DNA from: a virus
Length of the DNA: 64,000 nt
Virus record (IMG/VR): IMGVR_UViG_3300009155_000044
Location: 1-64,000 of that record
Direction: 5' to 3' (one strand)
The position numbers and the translations under genes were made by a program. Shown here piece after piece: positions 7,718-46,900 of this stretch (positions within the stretch are counted from its first letter, which is position 1; every line of letters begins with the position of its first letter). The notes under the pieces are model-generated. The model had not been told where the DNA came from. It worked only from the letters and a program-made list of their open reading frames with translations, and searched no databases.

Positions 7718-9283
7718 ATGAATATTCAATCTTTAATCAAAAGAGTTCAAGCATCTTTAAATTTAGAAGTGGATGGAATTGCTGGTCCCGCTACTTGGCA
7801 AGCTATTGCTGATAAACTAACTCCCGCTCTCAAAGAATCAGTGAGTGTTTCAGTTGTTAAAACTAATTCCTTGGCTAAAAAACTTGTAGAGCTTGCAAGA
7901 GAAGAAGTGGGAGTTGAAGAAGTTGACGGAACAAATTGTGGTCCAAGAGTTAATGAATATAAATCAGCAACAACTTTAAGTCCAAATGCTAGCTGGCCTT
8001 GGTGTTTTGATGAATCAGTTGATATTTTAACTGAAAATGGCTGGCGCAGTTTAAAAAAAATCGTTTCTTCAAAAGAAAAAATCAAAATAGCTCAAGTAGA
8101 TCAAAGCAATTTAGACATTACTTTTGACTATCCAACTGATTATATTCATAAAACAACAGATAATGCCTCTCAAGTTAAAGCTAGGGGGCTAAATTTTATA
8201 TGCGACAAGAATCATGAATTTTTTGCTTCTAAAAATAAAAGAAATTCTTCTCCAGATTTAATCGCGCTGTCTGAAATTCAATCATTTGTAAGCATCCCAT
8301 CTTGTTTTATAGCTTCAAAATATAATCAAAAGTATTCTGAATTAGATTTGGATTTTATTGCAGCTTTTGTGGCAGACGGATCTTTTCATCAAAGAAGTGA
8401 AAATCATAAACAAAAAATTCGCATACAAGTTAGTAAAGATCGTAAAGTTGAAGTTTTAAAATGTCATAATGGTTCATTTTATGAAGCTAAAAAAGTTTAT
8501 GGAAATAGTAAAAAGCCATTAACAACATTTGAATTTCACATTCCAGAATACTTTGATGAAATTTTCTCTGATTATAAGGAATTTAAATGGGAATGGGTTT
8601 TTTCTTTATGTTCAGAACAAATGAAATTCTTTTTAGAGAGATATTCTTTTTGGGATGGATGTTATGAAAGAAAAAATATTAGTACGTGTCGAGAACAAAA
8701 TCATGATATTTTTGTAGCAATGGGCATTATGGCGGGTATGCATCCAAATAGCTCTCGTAGAACAGTTAAAAGTGGCAAAACATGTTTTGAAATTTCTCTT
8801 GGAAATAAAAAAACTAGAACGCTCCAAGCATCTAATATTCATGAATACAATGAAAAAATTGAATTATATTGCGTAACAATGCCCAAGGGTCTTATTATTG
8901 TTAGAGATAGCAAAGGCACTCCATTTTTAACTGGTAATTGCGCTGCCTTTATTTGTTGGTTATTCAGGGAGACTATGAAAAACTCTAAATATTCTTTTTC
9001 TAGACCAACAACTGCTAGCGCATGGGGTTTTGAAAAGTGGGCTAGAGAAGAAAATGATTCTATCAAACTGCAAAAACCACACAACAATGACATTCAATCT
9101 GGCGACATTGTAATCTTTACTTTTTCGCACATTGGATTAGCAATTTCGGGAGTGGATTCTTCTGGTTATGTTCAAACAATAGAGGGCAATACTGACGGTG
9201 AAGGTAGTCGAGAAGGAGGTGCTGTTTTGCGAAAGAAACGCCACATTTCACAAATTCGCAGTAGAATTCGTACTTTTGAATAA
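7718..9283 (+). CDS. Endolysin (peptidoglycan-binding plus CHAP amidase) interrupted by an intein
   Basis: Residues 1-35 form a peptidoglycan-binding repeat (VDGIAGPATWQAI). The catalytic domain starts near residue 52 and is split at SWPW/CAAFICWLF, exactly before the expected CHAP/NlpC-type nucleophile Cys. After the intein the domain resumes with NDIQSGDIVIFTFSHIGLA, which holds the expected His. Splicing would give a 209-residue enzyme, normal for this type. It cleaves peptidoglycan peptide bonds at lysis. A holin-like gene follows 24 nt downstream. Confidence 0.88.
   Translation: MNIQSLIKRVQASLNLEVDGIAGPATWQAIADKLTPALKESVSVSVVKTNSLAKKLVELAREEVGVEEVDGTNCGPRVNEYKSATTLSPNASWPWCFDESVDILTENGWRSLKKIVSSKEKIKIAQVDQSNLDITFDYPTDYIHKTTDNASQVKARGLNFICDKNHEFFASKNKRNSSPDLIALSEIQSFVSIPSCFIASKYNQKYSELDLDFIAAFVADGSFHQRSENHKQKIRIQVSKDRKVEVLKCHNGSFYEAKKVYGNSKKPLTTFEFHIPEYFDEIFSDYKEFKWEWVFSLCSEQMKFFLERYSFWDGCYERKNISTCREQNHDIFVAMGIMAGMHPNSSRRTVKSGKTCFEISLGNKKTRTLQASNIHEYNEKIELYCVTMPKGLIIVRDSKGTPFLTGNCAAFICWLFRETMKNSKYSFSRPTTASAWGFEKWAREENDSIKLQKPHNNDIQSGDIVIFTFSHIGLAISGVDSSGYVQTIEGNTDGEGSREGGAVLRKKRHISQIRSRIRTFE
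8003..8938 (+). mobile_element. Intein in the endolysin (312 aa)
   Basis: Block A is CFDESVDILTENGWRSL (Cys1). A block-B-like segment contains CDKNHEFFAS. The end is GLIIVRDSKGTPFLTGN followed by extein Cys. The penultimate residue is Gly rather than His. The middle part (DFIAAFVADGSF) resembles one degenerate LAGLIDADG motif, so a homing endonuclease may be present or decaying. Confidence 0.88.
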
Positions 9284-13350: not shown

Positions 13351-13434
13351 TGACAAGGAAACTCTTCCATGGTAATGTTCAACATAATAAAAATTGCATC
13401 AACAAAACAAAATACAAACCAACAAAACAAAACA
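13351..13434 (+). promoter_or_regulatory. Promoter and CAA-rich leader
   Basis: TTGACA, a 17-bp spacer and TAATGT, followed by a leader of about 55 nt made almost entirely of A and C (repeats of AACAAAAC). It has no Shine-Dalgarno and no likely secondary structure. Similar leaders precede the genes at 5314 and 14428. Confidence 0.55.
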
Positions 13435-14394
13435 ATGATTGAATCCCTTACTCCAGAACAAACTGCCAAAATGCCAGAATACACTAAAAAGTGGCTTGCA
13501 ATTGGCATTAACACTGATCGTCTTGACTACGATGAAACTGTGAGCATCATTCACAAAGTGCAAACTAATTTGCTCAAAACTGAGACTACTCCAGTTATTA
13601 TTGTTAATAATCCAGTAGAAGCTTGGGTTGCTTGTCACTTCCTTAAAGCTGGTGTTGAAGTGAAAGATGTTCCTGCGAAAGTTGAAGAATACTTTGTCAA
13701 AGGACTTAAAATGGAGATTGAGACTTATACCACTCCGTATCTCAACGGATCGTTCGACGCGAACGTTTGGAGCTTCTACGACTTCTTCAAAGATGAAGTA
13801 GGAATTGACTTCAAAGAAGCGAGTGAGAATTATGCTATCTGGCATTCGACTCATAAGCTTGGGCAGATTTATCCAATGCCGACGGCAGTGGTTGTGAGTC
13901 AAAAGCCTACTGTGATTCACCTCAATGAAGACAATGTGACTCACTGTGACGGTGGTCCAGCCATTGCTTACGATGGTTATGGACTAAACAGTATCTTCAT
14001 CCTCAACGGAACGAGAGTTCCTGAGTGGTTGGCAGTTACTCCAAGCAATGAACTCACTCTTGATCAGTACAATACTCTGGACAATGCAGACCACAAAATG
14101 GAGTTTGTTCGTAAATTCGGAGTTGAAAGAATGCTCTCTTTTGGCAAGAAGATTGACTCTTACGAAAACTATCCTGATCAAGAGTGGTGGACTAAGAGTG
14201 AGTATGAACTTTGGGACATGGCCGCTTTGTACTCAGGCATTGATTATGCTCCTCACCTGAAGATGCTTAATCAAACTGTTGGAGTGTGGCATGTCGAAAG
14301 TGTCTCTCCAGAGTGTAAGAATCTTAAACAGGCTATTGCAGAACGACTTGGAGGCATTGACTTATCAGATCATGAAATTGTGGGCATCGCTTAA
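13435..14394 (+). CDS. Conserved phage protein of unknown function, 319 aa
   Basis: It begins MIESLTPEQTAKMPEYTKKW and resembles the DUF6745-like proteins whose N-terminus is a T-x-E-Q-x...W motif. Residues near 180 contain VIHLNEDNVTHCDGGPAIAY and a following NGTRVPEW, similar to the H-x-D-G-P-A-V-E repeats of the protein at 32397. GC content is higher than in its neighbours. It probably pairs functionally with the next gene. Function unknown. Confidence 0.65.
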   Translation: MIESLTPEQTAKMPEYTKKWLAIGINTDRLDYDETVSIIHKVQTNLLKTETTPVIIVNNPVEAWVACHFLKAGVEVKDVPAKVEEYFVKGLKMEIETYTTPYLNGSFDANVWSFYDFFKDEVGIDFKEASENYAIWHSTHKLGQIYPMPTAVVVSQKPTVIHLNEDNVTHCDGGPAIAYDGYGLNSIFILNGTRVPEWLAVTPSNELTLDQYNTLDNADHKMEFVRKFGVERMLSFGKKIDSYENYPDQEWWTKSEYELWDMAALYSGIDYAPHLKMLNQTVGVWHVESVSPECKNLKQAIAERLGGIDLSDHEIVGIA

Positions 14395-14427: not shown

Positions 14428-14787
14428 ATGAAAAAGAAAATCACCAATATTAAAAAGAAAATTATTCTTCACGGCGAATGCATTGTGGCTCAGTGCTCTA
14501 GTCTTCCTGATGATGTCATTGCAGAGAGTCATGCAACTTCATCCGTTATCGTGGCTAATAGCGAAGTCACTGGAAATCATCACGTTATTGCTAATAAGCC
14601 TGGAGTTGTTTTTTATAACTCCAAGACTACTGGCAAGCGCTACATGAATAGCTCTGTTCCTACTAATATTAGTTGTGTAATGGCTGAGCGTCACACTACC
14701 ATTGACATTGTGCCTGGCACTTATGTAATTGGCATTCAACAAGAATACGATTACATCGCTCAAGCTAAGCGAAATGTAGCTGATTAA
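14428..14787 (+). CDS. Conserved phage protein of unknown function, 119 aa
   Basis: Starts after a CAA-rich leader, 33 nt behind the 319-residue gene. It contains TGNHHVIANKPGVVFYN, ERHTTIDIVPGTYVIGIQQEYD; the H-H and H-T-T...PGTY pattern recurs in phage proteins found beside the preceding type. Possibly a small beta-rich metal-binding protein. Function unknown. Confidence 0.6.
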   Translation: MKKKITNIKKKIILHGECIVAQCSSLPDDVIAESHATSSVIVANSEVTGNHHVIANKPGVVFYNSKTTGKRYMNSSVPTNISCVMAERHTTIDIVPGTYVIGIQQEYDYIAQAKRNVAD

Positions 14788-14817: not shown

Positions 14818-14855
14818 AAAGGCTCTCTGAAATACAACTTCAGAGAGCCTTTTTA
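14818..14855. terminator. Strong Rho-independent terminator
   Basis: AAGGCTCTCTGAA pairs with TTCAGAGAGCCTT, followed by T's on both strands. It insulates the S-V array from upstream genes. A single repeat unit (AATTCTGTAGGG) lies just before it at 14801. Confidence 0.85.
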
Positions 14856-14866
14856 TTATAATAAAA

Positions 14867-15043
14867 TGAATAACAACGATGTGGAAAATCTTTAAATTCT
14901 TCTAATCTTGAAGTTCGGAGGAATGTAGGATTTAAAATATGGATGTTGACAGATTATGCTGTATGGAATAATGACTCTTTTTATAATATGAGTATCATTA
15001 TAAAAAGACCTGTAGCAGATTCTGTAAGAGATCACTTCAAATA
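14867..15043 (+). pseudogene. Decayed S-V repeat family member
   Basis: ATG 14867 (MNNNDVENL) hits a stop after 9 codons. Another frame continues with DYAVWNNDSFYNMS and ends RPVADSVRDHFK. Start- and end-module matches to the family, separated by a frameshift, mark it as a degenerate edge copy of the array. Confidence 0.6.
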
Positions 15044-15061
15044 AAAATTAATAATAAAGCA

Positions 15062-15241
15062 ATGAACAATTTTAATATTCGTAAAGCTGTATGGGATTCT
15101 GTATGGGATTCTGTAGGATGTTTAGTATGGGATTCTGCATGGGATTCTATATGGAGTTCTGTATATAATTCTGTAGAGAGTTCTGTAGGAAGTTCTGTAC
15201 AAGCTTCTACAAAAGATTACTTTCAAAACGACCTCCGCTGA
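15062..15241 (+). CDS. S-V repeat protein 1 (59 aa)
   Basis: Start module MNNFNIRKAV, about 10 tetrads including one irregular unit (VGCLVWD), and end module STKDYFQNDLR. The DLR/KLR ending is shared only with copy 2 and, in diverged form, with copies 12 and 25. Confidence 0.7.
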   Translation: MNNFNIRKAVWDSVWDSVGCLVWDSAWDSIWSSVYNSVESSVGSSVQASTKDYFQNDLR

Positions 15242-15250
15242 AATAAAGCA

Positions 15251-15490
15251 ATGAATGACATTAGCGTCTATAAAGCTGTATGGGATTCTGTAGAGGATTC
15301 TGTAGAGGACTCTGTAAGTAATTCTGTATCGAATTCTGTATGGAATTCTGTATCGAATTCTATAGCAGTTTCTGTAGCGGTTTCTGTAAGGAGTTATGTA
15401 AGGGATCTTGTAGAAGATTCTGTATGGAATTCTGTATTGGATTCTGTAGAGGATTCTACAAAAGATTACTTTCAAAACAAACTCCGCTAA
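15251..15490 (+). CDS. S-V repeat protein 2 (79 aa)
   Basis: Start MNDISVYKAVWDSVEDSV, ending TKDYFQNKLR. It contains runs of VSNSV and a VAVSVAVSV segment. The spacer before the ATG (AAATAAAGCA) is the alternative inter-gene linker seen also at 15491-15499 and 21178-21189. Confidence 0.75.
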   Translation: MNDISVYKAVWDSVEDSVEDSVSNSVSNSVWNSVSNSIAVSVAVSVRSYVRDLVEDSVWNSVLDSVEDSTKDYFQNKLR

Positions 15491-15499
15491 AATAAAGCA

Positions 15500-15724
15500 A
15501 TGAACAGTACTATCATTCGTAAAGCTGTATGGAATTCTGTAAAGGATTCTGTAAAGGATTCTGTAGAGGATCCTATATGGGTTTTTGTAGAGGTTTCTGT
15601 ATCGCGTTCTATAAGGATTTCTGTAGAGGCTTCTATATCGCGTTCTGTAGAGGTTTCTGTATCGCGTTCTGTAGAGTTTGATTCTGTAAGGAGTTCTGTA
15701 AGGGATCACTTCGAACAAAAATGA
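15500..15724 (+). CDS. S-V repeat protein 3 (74 aa)
   Basis: Start MNSTIIRKAV, end SVRDHFEQK. It contains three VSRS units and one extra codon (EFDSV), a 3-nt insertion that keeps the frame, which argues for selection on the protein. Confidence 0.75.
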   Translation: MNSTIIRKAVWNSVKDSVKDSVEDPIWVFVEVSVSRSIRISVEASISRSVEVSVSRSVEFDSVRSSVRDHFEQK

Positions 15725-15726
15725 TT

Positions 15727-15930
15727 ATGAACGACTCCACTATTCGTGAAGCTGCAAGCATAGGTAGTTCTATATGCACTTCTATAGAGAATGACGCATG
15801 GCATTCTATAATTAATGCTGTAGACGATTCTATATGGGAGCTTGTAATGAATTCTCTATTAGATTCTGGATGGGAGTCTATAAGGGATTTTGTAGGAAGT
15901 TCTGTAGGGGAATACTTCGAACAAAAATAA
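15727..15930 (+). CDS. S-V repeat protein 4, diverged (67 aa)
   Basis: MNDSTIREAASIGSSI start; tetrad spacing is kept but many units are changed (IENDAWHSIINAVDDSI). It ends VGSSVGEYFEQK. An older copy between near-identical ones. Start taken at the second ATG, which matches the family. Confidence 0.7.
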   Translation: MNDSTIREAASIGSSICTSIENDAWHSIINAVDDSIWELVMNSLLDSGWESIRDFVGSSVGEYFEQK

Positions 15931-15932
15931 TT

Positions 15933-16124
15933 ATGAATAAAATTAATGATTCTGTAGAGGGATCTGCAAGGGATTCTGTAAGGAGTTATGTAAGGAGGTC
16001 TGTAGAGGTTTCTGTATGGGATTCTGTAGCGAGTTCTGTAGCGAGTTCTGTAGCGAGTTCTGCATGGAGTTCTGTAGGGGATTCTGTAGATGATTCTGCA
16101 AGAGATTACTTCGAACAAAAATAA
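15933..16124 (+). CDS. S-V repeat protein 5 (63 aa)
   Basis: MNKINDSVEGSARDSV start, three successive VASSVASSVASSA units from in-register 12-bp duplication, end DSARDYFEQK. Coupled to copy 4 by TAA-TT-ATG. Confidence 0.75.
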   Translation: MNKINDSVEGSARDSVRSYVRRSVEVSVWDSVASSVASSVASSAWSSVGDSVDDSARDYFEQK

Positions 16125-16130
16125 ATAATT

Positions 16131-16346
16131 ATGAATAAAATTAATAAATCTGTATGGAATTCTGTAGGGGATTCTGTAGGTAATTCTGTATGGAATTCTG
16201 TAAGTAATTCTGTATGGAATTCTGTAGGGGATTCTGTATGGCATTCTTTAATGAGTTCTGTAAGGAGTTCTGTAGGGGATTTTGTATTGGCTTCTATAAG
16301 AACTTCTATAGCAGATTCTGCAAGAGATTATTTTGAACAAAATTAA
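16131..16346 (+). CDS. S-V repeat protein 6 (71 aa)
   Basis: MNKINKSVWNSV start. The segment VLASIRTSIADSARDYFEQ at its end is shared almost exactly with copy 24, although the middles differ. It overlaps the next ORF. Confidence 0.75.
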   Translation: MNKINKSVWNSVGDSVGNSVWNSVSNSVWNSVGDSVWHSLMSSVRSSVGDFVLASIRTSIADSARDYFEQN

Positions 16347-16347
16347 T

Positions 16348-16584
16348 ATCAATAAAATTAATGACAATATGTGGAATTTAATGTGGAATTCTCCTAGAAC
16401 TTCTATAATAGAGTTTGTCGCGAATCCTATATATAATATTATATCACATTCTGTCGAGGATGATCTACGTTATTCTATAAGGATTTCTGTAGGGGATTCT
16501 GTAAGAGATTCTACAAGAGATTCTATAGGAGATTCTATAGAAGATTCTGTAAGAGATTATTTCAAACAAAATAATTATGAATAA
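16348..16584 (+). CDS. S-V repeat protein 7, diverged, with ATC in place of ATG
   Basis: Alignment to the family puts the start at 16348, where the codon is ATC; the next in-frame ATG is 16369. The first half is diverged (MWNLMWNSPRTSIIEF) while the last eight units are regular, ending DSVRDYFKQNNYE. Either translation is reduced or it starts at 16369. Confidence 0.55.
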   Translation: MNKINDNMWNLMWNSPRTSIIEFVANPIYNIISHSVEDDLRYSIRISVGDSVRDSTRDSIGDSIEDSVRDYFKQNNYE

Positions 16585-16864
16585 AATTAATGATTCTGTA
16601 GAGGGATCTGTAAGGAGTTCTGTAAGGGATTCTGTATGGAGTTCTGTATGGAATTCTGTAAATCATTCTGTATGGAGTTCTGTAGTGAGTTCTGTAGGTA
16701 ATTCTGTATGGAATTCTGTATATAATTCTGTAGGGAGTTCTGTAGTGAGTTCTGTTCGCGTAAGTCGTTCAAAATCAATGAGTTACGCAGTAGGGAGTTC
16801 TGTAGATGATTCTGTAGAGGATTTTGTCGTAGGTTTTGTAATCGATTACTTCGAACAAAAATAA
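16577..16864 (+). CDS. S-V repeat protein 8 (95 aa)
   Basis: Starts in an 8-nt overlap with copy 7. Its VNHSVWSSVVSSVG block recurs in copy 19. A non-repeat insert (VRVSRSKSMSYAVG) interrupts the tetrads, and it ends DFVVGFVIDYFEQK. Confidence 0.75.
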   Translation: MNKINDSVEGSVRSSVRDSVWSSVWNSVNHSVWSSVVSSVGNSVWNSVYNSVGSSVVSSVRVSRSKSMSYAVGSSVDDSVEDFVVGFVIDYFEQK

Positions 16865-16870
16865 ATAATT

Positions 16871-17059
16871 ATGAATAAAATTAATGATTCTGTAGAGGGA
16901 TCTGTAAGGAGTTCTGTAAGGGATTCTGTAGGGAGTTCTGTATGGGTTTCTGTATGGGTTTCTGTAGCGAGTTCTGTATGGCATTCTGTAAAGGGTTCTG
17001 TAAGGAGTTCTGTCGGAGATTCTGCAAGAGATTATTTCGATTATTTCAAACAAAAATAA
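16871..17059 (+). CDS. S-V repeat protein 9 (62 aa)
   Basis: The N-terminal MNKINDSVEGSVRSSVRDSV is identical to that of copy 8. The end has a duplicated DYFDYFKQK, a 9-nt slip that stays in frame. Confidence 0.75.
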   Translation: MNKINDSVEGSVRSSVRDSVGSSVWVSVWVSVASSVWHSVKGSVRSSVGDSARDYFDYFKQK

Positions 17060-17061
17060 TT

Positions 17062-17238
17062 ATGAATGATGAAATTAATTATACTGAGATATTTAATATT
17101 AGAAGCTTTATAGGTTCTTTTATAAGCAATTCTGTAGAAATATCTGTATGGAGCGATATATGGGATACTATAGTGCATCCTATGAAAGATTCTGTACGGC
17201 GTTCTATACGCGATTTTGTAGATGATTACTTCGAATAA
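17062..17238 (+). CDS. S-V repeat protein 10, diverged (58 aa)
   Basis: MNDEINYTEIFNIRSFIGSF start; only the tetrad register, several S-V pairs and the DFVDDYFE end identify it. Last copy before the first foreign gene. Confidence 0.65.
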   Translation: MNDEINYTEIFNIRSFIGSFISNSVEISVWSDIWDTIVHPMKDSVRRSIRDFVDDYFE

Positions 17239-17278
17239 AATCAACGATTAACTATTCAGCAAAATTCCCCGAAAACCT

Positions 17279-17307
17279 CTTGACTTCCATATCGATTGAA
17301 GTATGCT
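17279..17307 (+). promoter_or_regulatory. Leaderless promoter inside the array
   Basis: TTGACT, 16 bp, TATGCT, 5 nt, ATG 17313. The TTG that could be read as a start codon is the -35 box. Confidence 0.6.
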
Positions 17308-17312
17308 CAATC

Positions 17313-17807
17313 ATGCTCAAAATTCAAACTATTAAAATGCCTCAATTATCTTGCGAATTAGAAGAATTTCTTTCTGCAACAGATCAAGACTTGAATCTCG
17401 CCCAAGAAGTTTCTAATTGGACGCTTAAGAGGAGTGAAGGAATTTATTCTGACGGGGAATTTGCTTATTATTCAGTAATTATGGAAATTCCCATCAGAGG
17501 CATTATAGATCGCACTATGCATAAACCAGTTTGGATTCGATCTACTGTGAAGATGCATTCTGGTGGACGTTGGGAACCTGATGAGTATGATGAAGTTTTA
17601 GTAGATGCAGGCCAAGTTTTTTTATCTTTAGCGGATGCTGTGAAACAATCAAAACTAGATAACTATGAGAAAGAACTGATGGAAATAAACAACTCTTGCT
17701 CAATTTGTGATGGTTCTGGAATGGAAGATTATTTTGCAGAAATTTCTTGCAAAGCTTGTTTGGGCGCAGGTCATCATTTTTTCATTAAACCGCAAAAAAA
17801 TAAATAA
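17313..17807 (+). CDS. Protein with DnaJ-like CxxCxGxG zinc motifs
   Basis: A 164-residue protein unrelated to the S-V family. The C-terminus has CSICDGSG and CKACLGAG, two C-x2-C-x-G-x-G knuckles as in the DnaJ zinc centre. The N-terminal 120 residues are not recognised. It has its own promoter and interrupts the array, so it was probably inserted between repeat genes. It could be a metal-stabilised binding protein. Confidence 0.7.
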   Translation: MLKIQTIKMPQLSCELEEFLSATDQDLNLAQEVSNWTLKRSEGIYSDGEFAYYSVIMEIPIRGIIDRTMHKPVWIRSTVKMHSGGRWEPDEYDEVLVDAGQVFLSLADAVKQSKLDNYEKELMEINNSCSICDGSGMEDYFAEISCKACLGAGHHFFIKPQKNK

Positions 17808-17812
17808 CTTAT

Positions 17813-17883
17813 ATGAGATAATTAAAATTTAAAGTATATATTCCTGATTATGAGAAATCAAAAGATTACTTCCAACAAAAATA
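17813..17883 (+). pseudogene. Fused remnants: YopX-like gene start joined to an S-V gene tail
   Basis: ATGAGATAATTAAAATTTAA... at 17813-17855 matches the first about 40 bases of the YopX-like gene at 21499 with a few substitutions. It is followed by AAAGATTACTTCCAACAAAA, the S-V end module. It looks like the scar of a recombination between the right flank and the array interior. Confidence 0.6.
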
Positions 17884-17886
17884 ATT

Positions 17887-18114
17887 ATGAATAAAATTGA
17901 AAATTCTACAAGGTATTCTGTAAGGGCTTCTGTAAGGGCTTCTGTAAGGGTTTCTGTAAGCAATTATGTAAGGGATTCTGCAAGGGATTCTGTAAGGGAT
18001 TCTGTATGGGATTCTGTGTGGGTTTCTGTGGGGGTTTCTGTGGGGGTTTCTGTGGGGAGTTCTGTATGGAATTCGGTAGGGGATTACTTTTCAAAACGAA
18101 CTCCACTAAAATAA
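17887..18114 (+). CDS. S-V repeat protein 12 (75 aa)
   Basis: MNKIENSTRYSVRASV start, with several identical tandem units (VRASV, then VGVSV three times) from recent slippage. It ends VGDYFSKRTPLK. Confidence 0.75.
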   Translation: MNKIENSTRYSVRASVRASVRVSVSNYVRDSARDSVRDSVWDSVWVSVGVSVGVSVGSSVWNSVGDYFSKRTPLK

Positions 18115-18118
18115 AGGA

Positions 18119-18352
18119 ATGAACAACTTTAACATTCGTAATTCTGTAAGGAATTCTGTATGGGATTCTGTAGCGGGTTCCATATGGGATTCTGTAGGGG
18201 ATTCTGTATGGGATTCTACAAGGAGTTTTGTAAGTTATGCTGTATGGGATTCTGTAAGGGATTCTGTAAGGGATTCTGTATGGAATTCTGTAGAGGATCC
18301 TGTGTGGGATTCTGTGTGGAGTTCTGTAGAGAATTATTTCCAACAAAAATAA
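18119..18352 (+). CDS. S-V repeat protein 13 (77 aa)
   Basis: MNNFNIRNSVRNSV start as in copy 1, one FVSYAV irregularity, end VENYFQQK shared with copies 14 and 15. Confidence 0.75.
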   Translation: MNNFNIRNSVRNSVWDSVAGSIWDSVGDSVWDSTRSFVSYAVWDSVRDSVRDSVWNSVEDPVWDSVWSSVENYFQQK

Positions 18353-18354
18353 TT

Positions 18355-18522
18355 ATGAATAAAATTAACGTTGCTGTAAGGAATTCTGTATGGAGTTCTG
18401 TATGGAGTTCTGTAGGGTTTTCTGTAAGGTGGTCTGTAGGGGATTCTGTAGGGGATTCTGTAGGGAGTTCTGTAAGGGATTCTGTATTGATTTCTGTAGA
18501 GAATTATTTCCAACAAAAATAA
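18355..18522 (+). CDS. S-V repeat protein 14 (55 aa)
   Basis: MNKINVAVRNSVWSSV start and VLISVENYFQQK end. TAA-TT-ATG coupled to its neighbours on both sides. Confidence 0.75.
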   Translation: MNKINVAVRNSVWSSVWSSVGFSVRWSVGDSVGDSVGSSVRDSVLISVENYFQQK

Positions 18523-18524
18523 TT

Positions 18525-18752
18525 ATGAATAAAATTGAAAATTCTGTAAGGGATTCTGTAAGGGATTCTGTATGGAGTTCTGTAAGGTGGTCTGTAGGGG
18601 ATTCTGTAGGGGATTCTGTAGCGAGTTCTGTGGGGCGTTCTGTAAGAGATTCTGTATGGTGGTCTGTAATGAATCCTGTAGCAGATTCTGTAGGGAGTTC
18701 TGTAAGCGATTCTGTATGGAGTTCTGTAGAGAATTATTTCAAACAAAAATAA
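18525..18752 (+). CDS. S-V repeat protein 15 (75 aa)
   Basis: MNKIENSVRDSV start. The block VGRSVRDSVWWSVMNPV is shared with copy 21, which has a different start and end, evidence of segment exchange. Confidence 0.75.
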   Translation: MNKIENSVRDSVRDSVWSSVRWSVGDSVGDSVASSVGRSVRDSVWWSVMNPVADSVGSSVSDSVWSSVENYFKQK

Positions 18753-18754
18753 TT

Positions 18755-18952
18755 ATGAATAAAATTAACGTTGCTGTAAGGAATTCTGTATGGGATTCTG
18801 TAGCGAGTTCTGTAAGGGTTTCTGTAAGGTGGTCTGTATGGAATTCTGTAGGGGATTCTGTAGGGAGTTCTGTATGGGATTCTGTAGGGCGTTTTGTAAG
18901 TGATTCTATCAAAGATTCTGTTAAAGATTACTTCAATAAAATAAAACAATGA
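18755..18952 (+). CDS. S-V repeat protein 16 (65 aa)
   Basis: MNKINVAVRNSVWDSV start, end DSIKDSVKDYFNKIKQ. It overlaps the next ORF by 4 nt. Confidence 0.75.
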   Translation: MNKINVAVRNSVWDSVASSVRVSVRWSVWNSVGDSVGSSVWDSVGRFVSDSIKDSVKDYFNKIKQ

Positions 18953-19095
18953 CCTATTTTAACATTCGTAAAGCTGTAGTGAATTCTGTAGGGAGTTCTG
19001 TAGGGAGTTCTGTAGGAGACATTTCAGAACAAAAAGTAGACGTTTGGCTTCTTCGTTACTTTCGCCAATTAATAATTAATAATAATGAAAACTGA
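18949..19095 (+). CDS. S-V repeat protein 17, truncated with foreign C-terminus (48 aa)
   Basis: MTYFNIRKAVVNSV, two VGSSV units, then GDISEQKVDVWLLRYFRQL, which is not repeat-like. The end module is missing: the ORF reads into the 5' end of the inserted gene at 19085. Confidence 0.6.
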   Translation: MTYFNIRKAVVNSVGSSVGSSVGDISEQKVDVWLLRYFRQLIINNNEN

Positions 19096-19366
19096 CACAC
19101 TAAATATTAGATATAATAGAATAAGAAAAGAGTGGTGCGTAAGCTATAAAAGATCTGATATTGAGCGCATTGATCATGTACCTAGACCATGTCACATGGG
19201 ATTCTATCACTTCCATCGAAAAATTGGACCAAAAAAAGCTTTTGCTGAACTCAAAAAGTTTTTGATAGACGAAACAAATAAAGAAATTTTATCGCTTCAA
19301 GAATATATAAATGAAATGAATGCTCTACAATTGCCCGATTGGATTACTAATAAAAAAAAGAACTGA
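19085..19366 (+). CDS. Hypothetical protein inside the array, 93 aa
   Basis: Not recognised. Basic, with RIRKEWCVSYKRSD and HVPRPCHMGFYHFHRKIG. It starts in an 11-nt overlap with copy 17 and ends at a TGA that itself begins repeat DNA. It appears to have replaced the junction between two S-V genes. Confidence 0.6.
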   Translation: MKTDTLNIRYNRIRKEWCVSYKRSDIERIDHVPRPCHMGFYHFHRKIGPKKAFAELKKFLIDETNKEILSLQEYINEMNALQLPDWITNKKKN

Positions 19367-19443
19367 TTCTGTAGTGAGTTCTGTAGTGAGTTCTGTAGAG
19401 CGTTCTGTAGAGGATTCTGTAAAAGATTACTTTCAAATAAAAT
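19365..19443 (+). pseudogene. 5'-truncated S-V gene remnant
   Basis: Five tetrads (DSVVSSVVSSVERSVEDSV) and the end VKDYFQIK lie directly behind the inserted gene without a start module. This is the left-over 3' half of the S-V gene disrupted by the insertion. Confidence 0.7.
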
Positions 19444-19687
19444 GAACTTGAATAAAATTAGCAATACTGTAAGGGCTTCTGTAGTGAATTCTGTATGTGA
19501 TTCTGTAGGGAGTTCTGCATGGAATTCTGTAAATCATTCTGTATGGAGTTCTGTAGTGAGTTCTGTAGGGGATTCTGTATGGCATTCTGTATGGCATTCT
19601 GTATGGCATTCTGTATGGCATTCTGTAGGGGATTCTATATTGCGCTCTGTAGAGGATTCTGTAAAAGATTACTTTCAAATAAAATGA
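19442..19687 (+). CDS. S-V repeat protein 19 (81 aa)
   Basis: MNLNKISNTVRASV start, four exact VWHS repeats, end VKDYFQIK. It overlaps the next start by ATGA. Confidence 0.75.
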   Translation: MNLNKISNTVRASVVNSVCDSVGSSAWNSVNHSVWSSVVSSVGDSVWHSVWHSVWHSVWHSVGDSILRSVEDSVKDYFQIK

Positions 19688-19965
19688 ACTTGAATAAAAT
19701 TAACGATGCTGTAAGTAATTCTGTATGGAATTCTGTATGGAATTCTGTAAGTAATTCTGTATGGAATTCTGTATGGAATTCTGTAAGGGGTTCTGTATGG
19801 GGTTCTGTAGGACGTTCTATAAAGAGTTCTGTAAGAGTTGATGTAGGACGTTCTATAAAGAGTTCTGTAAGAGTTGATGTAGGACGTTTTATAAAGAGTT
19901 CTGTAAGAGTTGATGTAAGGGATTCTGTAGAGAGTTCTGTAAAAGATTGCTTTCAAATAAAATGA
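19684..19965 (+). CDS. S-V repeat protein 20 (93 aa)
   Basis: MNLNKINDAVSNSV start. A higher-order 48-bp duplication repeats VGRSIKSSVRVDV three times. End VKDCFQIK. ATGA overlaps on both sides. Confidence 0.75.
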   Translation: MNLNKINDAVSNSVWNSVWNSVSNSVWNSVWNSVRGSVWGSVGRSIKSSVRVDVGRSIKSSVRVDVGRFIKSSVRVDVRDSVESSVKDCFQIK

Positions 19966-20300
19966 ACTTGAATAAAATTAGCAATACTATAAGGGTTTCT
20001 GTAGATGATTCTGCATGGGCTTCTGTAGCGAGTTCTGTGGGGCGTTCTGTAAGAGATTCTGTATGGTGGTCTGTAATGAATCCTGTAAATGATTCTGTAA
20101 GTAATTCTGTAAGTAATTTTGTATGGAATTCTGTATATAATTCTATAGCAGTTTCTGTAGGGCGTTCTGTAGGGGATTCTGTAGGGGATTCTGTATGGCA
20201 TTCTGTAGGGGATTCTATATTGCGCTCTGTAGGGGATTCTGTATGGGATTTTGTACAGGCTTCTGTAAGGGATTATTTTAAACAAAATGATTATGAATAA
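19962..20300 (+). CDS. S-V repeat protein 21 (112 aa, longest)
   Basis: MNLNKISNTIRVSV start, VGRSVRDSVWWSVMNPV block shared with copy 15, YNSIAVSV block as in copy 2, end VRDYFKQNDYE. Clearly mosaic. Confidence 0.75.
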   Translation: MNLNKISNTIRVSVDDSAWASVASSVGRSVRDSVWWSVMNPVNDSVSNSVSNFVWNSVYNSIAVSVGRSVGDSVGDSVWHSVGDSILRSVGDSVWDFVQASVRDYFKQNDYE

Positions 20301-20496
20301 AATTAACGATGCTGTAAGTAATTCTGTAAGGAATTCTGTAAGGAATTCTGTATGGAGTTTTGTATGGAGTTCTGTAAGGGATTCTGTAAGGTGGTCTGTA
20401 TGGAATTCTGTAGGGGATTCTGTAGCAGATTCTGTATGGGATTCTGTAGGGAGTTCTGTAGGGGATTCTGCAAGAGATTATTTCAAACAAAAATAA
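20293..20496 (+). CDS. S-V repeat protein 22 (67 aa)
   Basis: MNKINDAVSNSVRNSV start. Its second half (VRWSVWNSVGDSVADSV) is identical to the first half of copy 23. End DSARDYFKQK. Confidence 0.75.
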   Translation: MNKINDAVSNSVRNSVRNSVWSFVWSSVRDSVRWSVWNSVGDSVADSVWDSVGSSVGDSARDYFKQK

Positions 20497-20498
20497 TT

Positions 20499-20738
20499 AT
20501 GAATAAAATTAACGATTCTGTAAGGGATTCTGTAAGGTGGTCTGTATGGAATTCTGTAGGGGATTCTGTAGCAGATTCTGTATGGGATTCTGTAGCGAGT
20601 TCTGTAGAGGATTCTGTAGAGGATTCTGTATGGAATTCTGTATGGAATTCTGTATTGAGTTCTGTATGGGATTCTGTAAGGAATTCTGTAGGGGATTCTG
20701 TAAGAGATTCTGCAAGAGATTATTTCAAACAAAAATAA
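20499..20738 (+). CDS. S-V repeat protein 23 (79 aa)
   Basis: MNKINDSVRDSVRWSV start; the regular tetrads are uninterrupted; end DSARDYFKQK. Very close to copy 22, suggesting a recent duplication. Confidence 0.75.
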   Translation: MNKINDSVRDSVRWSVWNSVGDSVADSVWDSVASSVEDSVEDSVWNSVWNSVLSSVWDSVRNSVGDSVRDSARDYFKQK

Positions 20739-20740
20739 TT

Positions 20741-20932
20741 ATGAATAAAATTAACGATGCTATAAGGAAGTCTATATTGAGTTCTGTATGGAATTCTGTA
20801 GGGAATTCTATAGGGAATTCTGTAGGGAGTTCTGTAAGGAGTTTTGTAAGGGATTCTGTAGAGGATTCTGTATTGGCTTCTATAAGAACTTCTATAGCAG
20901 ATTCTGTAAGAGATTATTTCAAACAAAAATAA
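20741..20932 (+). CDS. S-V repeat protein 24 (63 aa)
   Basis: MNKINDAIRKSILSSV start; end ASIRTSIADSVRDYFKQK matches that of copy 6. Confidence 0.75.
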   Translation: MNKINDAIRKSILSSVWNSVGNSIGNSVGSSVRSFVRDSVEDSVLASIRTSIADSVRDYFKQK

Positions 20933-20934
20933 TT

Positions 20935-21177
20935 ATGAATAAAATTAATGATTCTGTAGAGGGATCTGTAAGGAGTTTTGTAAGGAGTTCTGTAGGGAGT
21001 TCTGTAGGGAGTTCTGCATGGGATTCTGTATGGATTTCTGTAGCGAGTTCTGTATGGGTTTCTGTAAGGGTTTCTGTAGGGGATTCTGTATTGGATTCTG
21101 TATGGGATTCTGTAGGGAGTTCTGTATGGCATTCTGTAAGGAATTCTGTAAGGGATTACTTCGCAAATGAACTCTAA
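20935..21177 (+). CDS. S-V repeat protein 25 (80 aa)
   Basis: The start MNKINDSVEGSVRSFV matches copies 5, 8 and 9. The end VRDYFANEL is a variant of the NKLR type and is followed by the AAATAAAGCA linker. Confidence 0.75.
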   Translation: MNKINDSVEGSVRSFVRSSVGSSVGSSAWDSVWISVASSVWVSVRVSVGDSVLDSVWDSVGSSVWHSVRNSVRDYFANEL

Positions 21178-21189
21178 TAAAATAAAGCA

Positions 21190-21273
21190 ATGAATAACTC
21201 TGATATTCGTAATTCTGTAAGGAATTCTGTAAGGGGTTCTGTATGGGATTCTGTAAAAAATTACTTCGAATAA
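21190..21273 (+). CDS. S-V repeat protein 26, minimal (27 aa)
   Basis: MNNSDIRNSVRNSV, two more tetrads and VKNYFE. Right-hand end of the array; the shortest member with both modules. Confidence 0.55.
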   Translation: MNNSDIRNSVRNSVRGSVWDSVKNYFE

Positions 21274-21498: not shown

Positions 21499-21870
21499 AT
21501 GAGACAATTAAAATTTAGGGTATATATTCCTGATCATCAGAAGTTTTGTTACTTTTGGTTAAATAATTTTGATTACTCTGATCGTTACTTACATCAATAT
21601 TTGCATCCCGTCCAACAATGGACAGGATTGACAGATTCAAAAGGCGTTGAAATTTACGAGGGAGACATTGTTAAAACTATTTATGAAAATGATCCTGATT
21701 TTAATATTGGAACTATTATTTATGATGTTTTAACTGGAGCTTATAGAATTAAAGCTTTAAAAAATTTATTGCCTATTATAACTTATAGATTTGTAGATGG
21801 CAAACCACAAGAATTATTACAAGTAGTTAATGAAGTTATTGGAAATGAGCACGAATTACCTTTAAATTAA
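21499..21870 (+). CDS. YopX-family protein
   Basis: The protein begins MRQLKFRVYIPDHQKFCYFW and has the family core VQQWTGLTDSKGVEIYEGDIV (residues 38-58), then GTIIYDVLTGAY. YopX proteins are common in phages and have a small SH3-like beta fold of unknown function. A partial copy of its first 40 bases sits at 17813 inside the S-V array. Confidence 0.85.
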   Translation: MRQLKFRVYIPDHQKFCYFWLNNFDYSDRYLHQYLHPVQQWTGLTDSKGVEIYEGDIVKTIYENDPDFNIGTIIYDVLTGAYRIKALKNLLPIITYRFVDGKPQELLQVVNEVIGNEHELPLN

Positions 21871-43993: not shown

Positions 43994-46900
43994 ATGAGTT
44001 GGGAAGCTGGACATCAAAAACTACACAATAAATTCAGAGGTATTAATGAAGAAATTCTCAATACCAAAGGATTTATTGATGAGAGAAAATCTAAAATTTT
44101 ATTATATAAATTTTTAAAAGAAAATCCCTCGTTCACTTCTGAATTCATGACAGGAGTCTCTTTGTTTCCTTTTCAACACATGGCTATTAAAGCGATGATG
44201 GACTCTGATTACTTTTTGGGAATATGGTGTTTAGATGAAAATGAATACGTTTTAACAGAAAGTGGTTTCAAGAAAATTAAAGATGTGAGTGTTGGAGAAC
44301 GAGTAAGATCTAGAAATAAATTAAATCTAGTTACTGATAAAAAATTCAACTCTCCCAATGAAAAAGGATTATATATCAAAACATTTTCAGGAGATTCTTT
44401 CAAGGCAAAACTTGGCCATAAAACTTTAATTTACAATAGCTCAACTTTAGATTTAGAATTTAAAGAGATTGAAACTTTAACAACTGAAGATTTCTTGCCA
44501 ATTAAACTTGGCATGAACTGTTGGGGAGATGTTCAATTGGTAGAGAACTCTCCAAAGATGAACATCGAAGATTGTGATTATTGGTATTTTTTATTAGGAT
44601 ACATGATTGGAGATGGATATTTTGACGACTACACTATGCACTGGTGTTCTGAAGATTCCAAGGTTATTGATATGACAATGGCTAAAGCTAAAGAGTATTT
44701 TCCTAAAAATAAAATTATTTGCCGCTCAAGAGCTAATAATGGATTTTTAGAAATGGGAATTTCTAGCAAAGATTTAATTGACTGGTTAAAATCTATTGGA
44801 TTTGATAGATCTTTAAAAGCAAAAAATAAAATCATACCAGACTCTATCCTCCAAATTAATGAGCAAAAAATGGCAGCTTTAATTAGCGGAATTTTTAGTG
44901 CAGATGGATATTGCAGCGTTCTAAAAGATAAAAGACACTCTAATTCAAAAACAGTTAAATTAGGATTAAAGAATACATCTATTGAATTGCTGAGACAGGT
45001 GAAAATGCTGCTTAATAATTTTGGAGTAGAATCTTCTATTAGATATAGTGGATCTCATAAAGATGTTCCATACTATGATTTAAAAATACTTAAAAGTGGA
45101 CATCAAAAATTTAGCGATAGAATTGGATTCGTTTCAGATCATAAACAAAATAATTTATTAGAGGTTTTAAATCTTCCAAGTAGAAAATATCAAATAAATT
45201 TAGTGCCAAATTTAGGAACTTATCTAAAGAAAAAATATAAAACGTGGCAAAAGTTATTTGGAGTAGCGGGAAACTTTGGTAAAGACATGCGTTTGGATTC
45301 TGCCTTATCAGCAAAGTTTTTAGATGAAAAAGATAAGGAGAGTCTTTTGCTTTTACAAAATGAAAATGTTTATTTTTCAAAAATTGAAACTATAACCTCC
45401 ATCGAAACTTCCACAGTAGACATTACAGTTGATTCTGAAGAGAATTACGTGGGTAATGGTATTGTGCATCATAATTCCCGTGGGATGTCCAAGTGCAGTC
45501 ATTACGATTCATTAGTGTGGACAGATAGAGGACTTATTAAAATTGGAGATATTAAAATTGGAGATAAAGTTCAAAGCCTTATAGGATTCAATGAAGTTGA
45601 AAATAAAGTTATAAATAATAAGCAGCAATCTTATAAGATTACTACTCAATCAGGATTAGTTTCTAATGGTTTGGATTATCATAAATTATTAGTCTTTAAT
45701 AAAGATTTAGAATTCGAATGGAAATTTTCTAAAGATATCATTATTGATGATATTTTGGTTATTAAAAAATTCAAAACTCTAGAACTTTTGCAAAAAGATA
45801 TTTTTGCAGATTTTAAATTTGAAAATAACGTAGTTAATTTTAATAAACCAAAAGTTGTTAAATTTGATAATGCACCTTTAAAGGATTGGTACTATTTCTT
45901 TGGTTTGCTTATTGGAGATGGGTGTATTTTAAATAGGGGAATATCTATCACTTCTGAAGATTTTGAAATTAAAGATTTTTTAGAAGCTTTTTCTTTAAAA
46001 CTGGGCCTTAATTTAACCGTTGTAAATAAACCAGGAAAAACCAAAGATTTTAGAATTTATTCAAAGGAATTAATTTCATTTTTATATCATTTAGGATTTG
46101 ATCAAAAAAAAGCTTGCGAAAAAAATATCCCAAGTATTTTAACACAAGCTTCATCAGAAAATATTCAATTTTTAATGAGAGGATTATTTGATACAGATGG
46201 ATATTGCGCCACTCAAAGAAAAGAAAAAAAAGGAACTCGTGTAAGGGTCGGATTTACTTCAACTAGCGAAGTACTAATCCATCAAATACTTAATCTATGT
46301 TTACAAGAAGGTTTTCTTTTTAAGAAAAAATTAACATTTAAAGGTGGTGCATCTAATTTTCCTAATGGAAAAATTTACAACTGCAATAAAGCTTGGAGTT
46401 TAATTTTAAGCGATGGCAAATCTGTAAAAGAATTTGGTGAAAAAATTGGTTTTAATATCAAAAGAAAACAATCTAAAATTCTTGATTTACAAGAACAAAC
46501 TTCACAAGATGGTAGTTTTTGTGAATTCATACCATATGTCGGAGATTTTTTAAAGAAAAAACTCAATAAGAAATCTATTTGTTTCATTAAAGACGAAAAA
46601 AAAATAAAATTAAATTTTAGAGAAAAAACTAGCAGAGTTCTTTTGAATAAAATTTTAAATTTTGAAAACTTACCAGATGATATTCGGGAAAAACTTAATT
46701 TTTTAAATAAAAATGATGTATATTTTGAAAAAGTTAAATCAGTAGAAATGGACGAATGCGTCACTGTTGATATTCAGGTTGCTAATGAACATTGTTATAT
46801 AGCAGATGGGATAGTTAATCACAACTCCTTTTCTACAGCAGTGTTTGCCATCTTAGATGCGACGTTAAATCAAGGAGTTCACATTGGAATTATTAGTAAA

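Follow-up and report, generated by a model that had tools for sequence, protein, structure and literature searches.

Based on analyses of a 64,000-nucleotide stretch of viral DNA (positions 1 to 64,000 of IMG/VR record IMGVR_UViG_3300009155_000044; hereafter the window, part of a 120-kb virus record) and comparisons with other viral and bacterial genomes, we propose that an array of small tandem genes at 15062-21273 on the + strand is probably the repeat segment of a DUF6745 protein, detached from it, present in many copies and diversifying, whose products would work in trans with a DUF6745 body and a conserved partner of about 120 residues (aa). The array consists of 25 same-strand open reading frames (ORFs) of 27-112 aa built from a 12-bp, four-residue repeat, here termed the S-V tetrad. 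A DUF6745 gene devoid of tetrads is located 668 bp upstream, and in other phages the tetrads are an insert of the DUF6745 protein itself. An earlier note, made from the letters of this DNA, had recognized the array and missed the tetrad-free DUF6745 gene at 13369-14394, and thereby the origin proposed here. The window appears to be part of a tailed phage, as its long ORFs include ones that look terminase-like and structural in our own reading of the translations.

The proposal is carried by the distribution of the tetrads relative to DUF6745. Array records were searched with the Pfam profile PF20530, and weak or failed ones with a profile of tetrad-free DUF6745 (A3), which added the L030 record; most array phages carry a DUF6745 gene without tetrads. 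In 12 array records besides the window this gene could be placed on the strand of the array: it abuts or overlaps the array in two, is 250-1,400 bp distant in seven, sits within it in one and is about 3 and about 9 kb away in the remaining two. By contrast, DUF6745 is absent from all 26 records with tetrads in a second protein family, the LWxxGLVPS proteins described below. A reverse scan, using the tetrad-free DUF6745 alignment as query, returned 79 loci that form 55 clusters at 85% identity. With the split class defined as no internal tetrads and separate same-strand tetrad genes within 10 kb, 25 clusters are fused, 20 are split with mini-genes, ten have neither and none has both, an exclusion between cis and trans with a Fisher p of 7e-8, not corrected for kinship. 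The first mini-gene of this set often starts only tens of bases after DUF6745 (L368, and L360 at about 20 bp), and relatives such as L247 and L365 have the fused protein. On a DUF6745 tree calculated after removal of the tetrads, the distribution of the split state requires four changes, and supported branches make four of them necessary; a second tree, of the reverse-scan set, likewise contains four fused/split changes. The trees thus indicate that the state of the tetrad block has changed at least four times. Fused proteins surround the clade of the window in the tree, as would be expected after fission in this lineage, with the direction not proven.

Scanning of viral contigs in two ways, protein-guided and with a degenerate DNA pattern, yielded more than 100 tetrad stretches (both scans), found in three settings. 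In the first, tetrad-only mini-genes stand in tandem arrays of 3-39 genes with ends that are constant per lineage, i.e. DYFKQK in the window and YEY, YDY, YEF, YDT, REERKRR or PKIK elsewhere. In the second, a DUF6745 protein contains 5-58 tetrads, flanked by an N-terminal region (..KWxxIGLSTEPADRxxAExxIxxAYxxAGLxxPxIVWCxSPL..) on one side and by the Pfam domain (GQHDAxWLxFYDYF..) on the other. The longest fused block seen, about 128 S-V tetrads, is that of a 917-aa DUF6745 ORF at L395. In the third, the block occupies the middle of a second phage protein family that ends PFQPAVDLWxxGLVPSFDGKxWRLHxG, some members having an N-terminal DUF7666-like domain; this LWxxGLVPS family was seen at about 35 loci besides L015, L016, L033 and L040. 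Tetrads other than S-V also exist: split phages of the reverse-scan set have Q-V, N-V and E-V versions, and the same internal place of DUF6745 proteins is taken by QL tetrads (GDQLWGQLRDQL) in gp38 of the Mycobacterium prophage prophiGD102-1 and by SL tetrads (GSSLESSLW) in UOF77368 of Caudoviricetes MW202476. These two proteins and LMM01 gp174 belong to the same family (PF20530) as the body of the window, which differs from them in lacking tetrads, these being separate and multiplied genes. Among GTDB genomes the degenerate pattern gave five convincing relatives only (L051, L070, L108, L119 and L140), on contigs of a few bacterial genomes or metagenome-assembled genomes, all running on into DUF6745 or LWxxGLVPS C-terminal sequence; the remaining matches were mostly chance or unrelated repeats. 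Searching INPHARED with a mini-protein by tblastn, and a tblastn-confirmed GTDB scan, gave no match, probably owing to low-complexity filtering, and this is not taken as absence.

The array itself stands far above chance, as the exact core TTCTGTA occurs 217 times within it and four times on the remaining + strand of the window, and every exact or one-mismatch match to a two-tetrad pattern in the 120-kb record falls inside it. Of the properties listed in the earlier note, the length range holds (27-112 aa), the count of 24 genes is corrected to 25, and others need qualification. The joints TAA-TT-ATG (gap of 2) and ATGA (gap of -4) are present in nine and four cases, the other genes overlapping by 8 or being separated by gaps of 4-12. 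In the 338 tetrads of the 25 ORFs, from a simple alignment, the V position, described as restricted to V, I, A, T and L, is V in 282, I in 34, A in 12, T in 5 and other in 5. The fourth (x) position, said to be nearly always an NNG codon, tends in that direction, with G in third position in 76%; its residues W, R and G are encoded by TGG, AGG and GGG, TGG being the commonest. The locus is organized as follows, all features being on the + strand.

13369-14394 (+): tetrad-free DUF6745 body gene, likely start 13435 (PF20530 match, tree)
14428-14787 (+): small conserved partner gene, about 119 aa, GE.TGH.H / H.EH / QQEY...V.D family (homologues at DUF6745 loci)
14818-14852 (+): terminator-like hairpin and T-run, separating the DUF6745/partner genes from the array (consensus scan)
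14943-15044 (+): degenerate tetrad copy or relic ending ADSVRDHFK (ORF list)
15062-15241 (+): tetrad gene 1, MNNFNIR head
15251-15490 (+): tetrad gene 2
15500-15724 (+): tetrad gene 3
15727-15930 (+): tetrad gene 4, diverged
15933-16124 (+): tetrad gene 5
16131-16346 (+): tetrad gene 6
16369-16584 (+): tetrad gene 7, usual ATG start reads ATC, start uncertain
16577-16864 (+): tetrad gene 8
16871-17059 (+): tetrad gene 9
17062-17238 (+): tetrad gene 10, diverged
17280-17807 (+): unrelated ORF breaking the array, weak DnaJ CxxCxG-like zinc motif
17887-18114 (+): tetrad gene 11
18119-18352 (+): tetrad gene 12
18355-18522 (+): tetrad gene 13
18525-18752 (+): tetrad gene 14
18755-18952 (+): tetrad gene 15
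18949-19095 (+): tetrad gene 16, truncated or degenerate, 48 aa
19085-19366 (+): unrelated inserted ORF, weak phage RpbA-like match
19320-19445 (+): tetrad gene 17, 5' end replaced through the insertion, runs in from the inserted ORF
19442-19687 (+): tetrad gene 18, one tetrad more than strain L009
19684-19965 (+): tetrad gene 19, three tetrads more than strain L009
19962-20300 (+): tetrad gene 20, the longest, 112 aa
20293-20496 (+): tetrad gene 21
20499-20738 (+): tetrad gene 22, modelled with AlphaFold2
20741-20932 (+): tetrad gene 23
20935-21177 (+): tetrad gene 24
21190-21273 (+): tetrad gene 25, 27 aa

Two unrelated ORFs thus interrupt the array (17280-17807 and 19085-19366), and three copies are damaged or atypical (those starting at 16369, 18949 and 19320). 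The 5' end of gene 17 left by the second insertion reads MLYNCPIGLLIKKRTDSV..., and the same junction peptide is present in the related phage L018. At 17810-17880 the tail of a tetrad gene is joined to the start of a YopX-like gene, and a complete YopX gene (PF09643) directly follows the array at 21499-21870, which suggests recombination between the array and its neighbour. Terminator-like sites in the region are not more numerous than in shuffled sequences.

The tetrads are read as protein. No stop is found at the x codon in the window, compared with 25.5 expected if the three codon positions were independent, so that the absence of internal stops pointed out in the earlier note is both true and informative, and the +1 frame over the same stretches contains about 200 stops. 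Across ten array phages a single x-codon stop was seen against about 170 expected, and alternative frames of their tetrad stretches hold many stops. Stops are thus missing in the window although its commonest x codon, TGG, lies one step from both TGA and TAG. The Ser-Val pair is encoded by TCT-GTA in the window and by TCA-GTA, TCT-GTT, TCC-GTG, AGC-GTG, AGC-GTC or TCG-GTC in unrelated phages. AGC and TCN serine codons are not one mutational step apart; hence it is the amino acids, not the DNA, that unrelated phages have in common. This use of different codons for the same tetrad is the most decisive indication that the tetrad ORFs are protein-coding, and the tetrad [DNSA]-S-V-[WRGE] recurs in frame across phages, with different codons and lineage-specific constant ends, in the manner of one family. 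The description of a coding, diversifying multigene family in tandem cassettes is therefore supported by stop depletion, in-frame indels and replacement-biased change. Frequent frameshifts in related phages and equal silent and replacement rates had been named as signs of a non-coding satellite; no array phage examined has lost the reading frames, and replacement far exceeds silent change.

Turnover of the array proceeds in whole repeats. Compared by BLAST counts (a MAFFT alignment had scattered one 36-bp gap into spurious single-nucleotide differences), the near-identical strain L009 differs from the window over 10.5 kb by ten mismatches and two gaps, both within the array and of 12 and 36 bp, i.e. 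one and three tetrads lost in L009, in frame. Genes 21 (20293) and 22 (20499) share 80 identical bp at a register shift of 60 bp (five tetrads); such long exact blocks between paralogues at shifted registers argue that recombination reshuffles them. Where cousin phages retain about 79% identity in the DUF6745 flanks, no gene-by-gene alignment of their arrays is obtained. At fourfold-degenerate third positions only 0.7% of Ser and 4.5% of Val codons in the window tetrads differ from the consensus, compared with 31-64% of the tetrads at positions one and two of the D and x codons; genome codon use (TCT 34%, GTA 19%, AGG 4%, GGG 4%) fails to explain the frozen silent sites. Frozen silent together with varied replacement sites point to recent amplification of a founder tetrad followed by diversification of the replacement sites, and this is what the window array looks like, with reshuffling of older tetrad variants as a process that would also contribute to the diversity. 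Silent divergence is higher, 10-28%, in the arrays of G065, G067 and G071, some of the other phages, and these arrays are therefore older. Pairwise pN/pS (replacement to silent polymorphism) was not used, being confounded by alignment of non-orthologous tetrads, and the per-position comparison was preferred.

The product of 13369-14394 matches PF20530 with 26.8 bits (E=3.7e-6), slightly short of the curated Pfam cut-off of 27 bits, and its near-identical copy in G056 with 27.4 bits when searched in the whole G056 record. It keeps the conserved W..FYD, H..GPA and HG.R(V)P positions, and the tree places it together with DUF6745 proteins that bear tetrads. We note that LHRDDGPA-repeat proteins, which resemble a piece of DUF6745, are present in the window phage (32397-32738) and in relatives L315 and L316. 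The gene at 14428-14787 has homologues on the same strand, usually adjacent, at 92 of 103 DUF6745 loci, and at 34 of 36 further fused loci. They include Microcystis phage LMM01 gp175, prophiGD102-1 gp37 and a Streptomyces protein, share the motifs GE.TGH.H, H.EH and RQ/QQ-EY...V.D, and lie beside DUF6745 in phages, Streptomyces, Deinococcus and Nocardia plasmids. The gene at 14428-14787 itself matches no Pfam family and no PDB entry.

Structure prediction with AlphaFold2 separates body from repeat. In a fused protein the DUF6745 body is mostly modelled with a predicted local distance difference test score (pLDDT) above 90, and the tetrad block with 31-41; the lone mini-protein of gene 22 becomes one featureless helix (pLDDT 79, predicted TM-score 0.34), which we judge uninformative. 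Repeats of four residues fail to maintain a single face along an alpha-helix, and for tetrads of S, V, N, D and G with an exact period of four the models do not establish a stable amphipathic helix or any known solenoid, leaving the previously suggested solenoid or amphipathic fibre unsupported. Foldseek comparison of the DUF6745 model gave no PDB match at E<=0.001, and its neighbours among viral models are confined to other DUF6745 proteins and unnamed ones. When scanned against PHROG, Pfam, NCBIfam and PADLOC, the mini-proteins showed matches no better than chance; those to tape-measure PHROGs, which fall in the tetrads, were disregarded. Pentapeptide-repeat proteins (PF00805), defined by A(D/N)LXX with a period of five, resemble the tetrads in having a repeat of short period whose small or hydrophobic core hardly varies, but the tetrads have a period of four, no Pfam match and no predicted solenoid, and are not assigned to that family. 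Heptad coiled coils have a 3.5-residue hydrophobic periodicity and were likewise rejected, given the strict four-residue period over 338 tetrads.

We envisage the following mechanism. In many phages a single protein comprises the N-terminal part, the tetrad block and the DUF6745 domain. In the window phage and its relatives the block would have left the DUF6745 gene, to be made as a panel of tetrad-only mini-proteins from the neighbouring array, with DUF6745, the ~120-aa partner and the mini-proteins presumably forming one module. Growth, shrinkage and reshuffling of the array take place in 12-bp in-frame steps, through recombination or slippage, the D (D/N/S/A) and x (W/R/G/E) positions being diversified and S and V kept. 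On gene-level evidence, the mini-proteins may dock in trans on the DUF6745 body and stand in for its insert, or they may bind whatever partner or target the fused block has. They would thereby provide one variable surface in many interchangeable forms, most likely directed at a host component that changes.

Several observations weigh against this proposal. The tetrads also occur in the LWxxGLVPS proteins, which resemble the fused DUF6745 proteins in their mid-protein S-V block and differ in the absence of DUF6745 (0 of 26 records) and of the ~120-aa partner (0 of 41 loci). Conversely, Streptomyces DUF6745 proteins lack tetrads, and ten of the 55 DUF6745 clusters have neither tetrads nor mini-genes, so the body can do without them. 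Of these ten, seven have less than 4 kb of contig on one side, and three (L364, L399 and L418) have about 9 kb or more on both. The L017 array record (108 kb) has no DUF6745, its array reaching the contig end. The zero in the class with both is threshold-dependent, as a looser rule gives one borderline ORF each in the fused L392 and L393. A kinship-corrected pair test is underpowered, its two or three informative pairs all running in the expected direction. Finally, the excess of pN over pS may derive in part from shuffling of pre-existing tetrad types instead of new mutations.

The most serious alternative, itself unlikely, is that the tetrads are an unstable, mutation-prone linker that is merely tolerated, and that the detached copies are translated, nearly neutral and kept only because the repeat seldom yields stops. 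The wide range in length (5-58 tetrads when fused, 3-39 mini-genes when split, some phages having none), the decay of some array copies and the failure of AlphaFold2 to find a fold for the block would all be expected of such a neutral spacer. However, most array phages show a strong depletion of x-codon stops, strand and frame are maintained along with heads and tails, variation concentrates at replacement sites with silent sites frozen, and upon repeated fission the block has been retained in trans instead of simply being lost. We give less credence still to free-standing decoy, inhibitor or escape peptides that act alone on a target in the host or a competitor, with the DUF6745 link reduced to shared ancestry and synteny. 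Such peptides would account for the diversification pattern, the large arrays of up to 39 genes and the constant ends particular to each phage, but not for the near-exclusive same-strand partnership with DUF6745 in cis or trans, nor for the partner conserved alongside it.

A modifying system whose substrates are the mini-proteins, akin to precursors of ribosomally synthesized and post-translationally modified peptides, is quite improbable. Tandem small genes with constant heads and tails around a variable core are common to both, and on two bacterial plasmids (Streptomyces and Deinococcus) the pair of DUF6745 and ~120-aa partner lies beside STM4011-STM4015 with two radical SAM proteins. Yet the variable part is here the repeat itself, which is also internal to a large protein, no phage-side modifying enzyme was recognized beside the arrays among the genes read, and the bacterial DUF6745 members seen lack tetrads; radical SAM neighbours were recognized only for these tetrad-free members and none near the window array. 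A diversity-generating retroelement or similar targeted mutagenesis is scarcely credible as the source of variation: diversity is indeed focused on few replacement sites with silent sites frozen, but it lies in tandem whole genes, the changes are not adenine-specific, and no reverse transcriptase (PF00078) was found in the 120-kb record by a search that was positive in control genomes. A non-coding minisatellite that is open by chance, compatible with the 12-bp repeat and with several antisense frames that are rather open in the window, is refuted by stop depletion, frame-keeping indels and the different codons used for the same tetrad between phages.

Elsewhere in the window, a 1479-aa terminase-like ORF (43994-48433) apparently contains two intein-like inserts (CLDENEYVLT...GIVHHNS and CSHYDSLVWT...GIVNHNS), and a 521-aa cell-wall-hydrolase-like ORF (7718-9283) has one (CFDESVDILTENGW...FLTGNC).

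In conclusion, the array is best accommodated as a repeat segment of DUF6745 supplied in trans. A bolder version, which we regard as possible rather than probable, is that an internal repeat has repeatedly given rise to a library of interchangeable mini-subunits, encoded by as many as 39 genes, that acts in trans, reshuffles itself and plugs into the same body, generating combinatorial diversity through repeat instability and diversifying selection, with no retroelement or recombinase cassette. Proteins made of short repeats, the fission of genes and tandem gene families are all familiar in themselves, but we know of no earlier case in which one repeat segment switched repeatedly between two states, an insert within a protein and a diversifying array of genes. 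In open-access literature text, to which our check was confined, neither this switch from cis to trans nor any mention of the tetrad motif, DUF6745 or DUF7666 was found. If true, it would represent a new viral route to protein diversity, in which a variable segment is excised, multiplied as tiny genes and supplied in trans. The repeated switching between fused and split states would then constitute a natural experiment, following Rosetta-stone logic, that makes the function of the DUF6745 module testable, and much phage sequence now classed as hypothetical and of low complexity would become one recognizable system.

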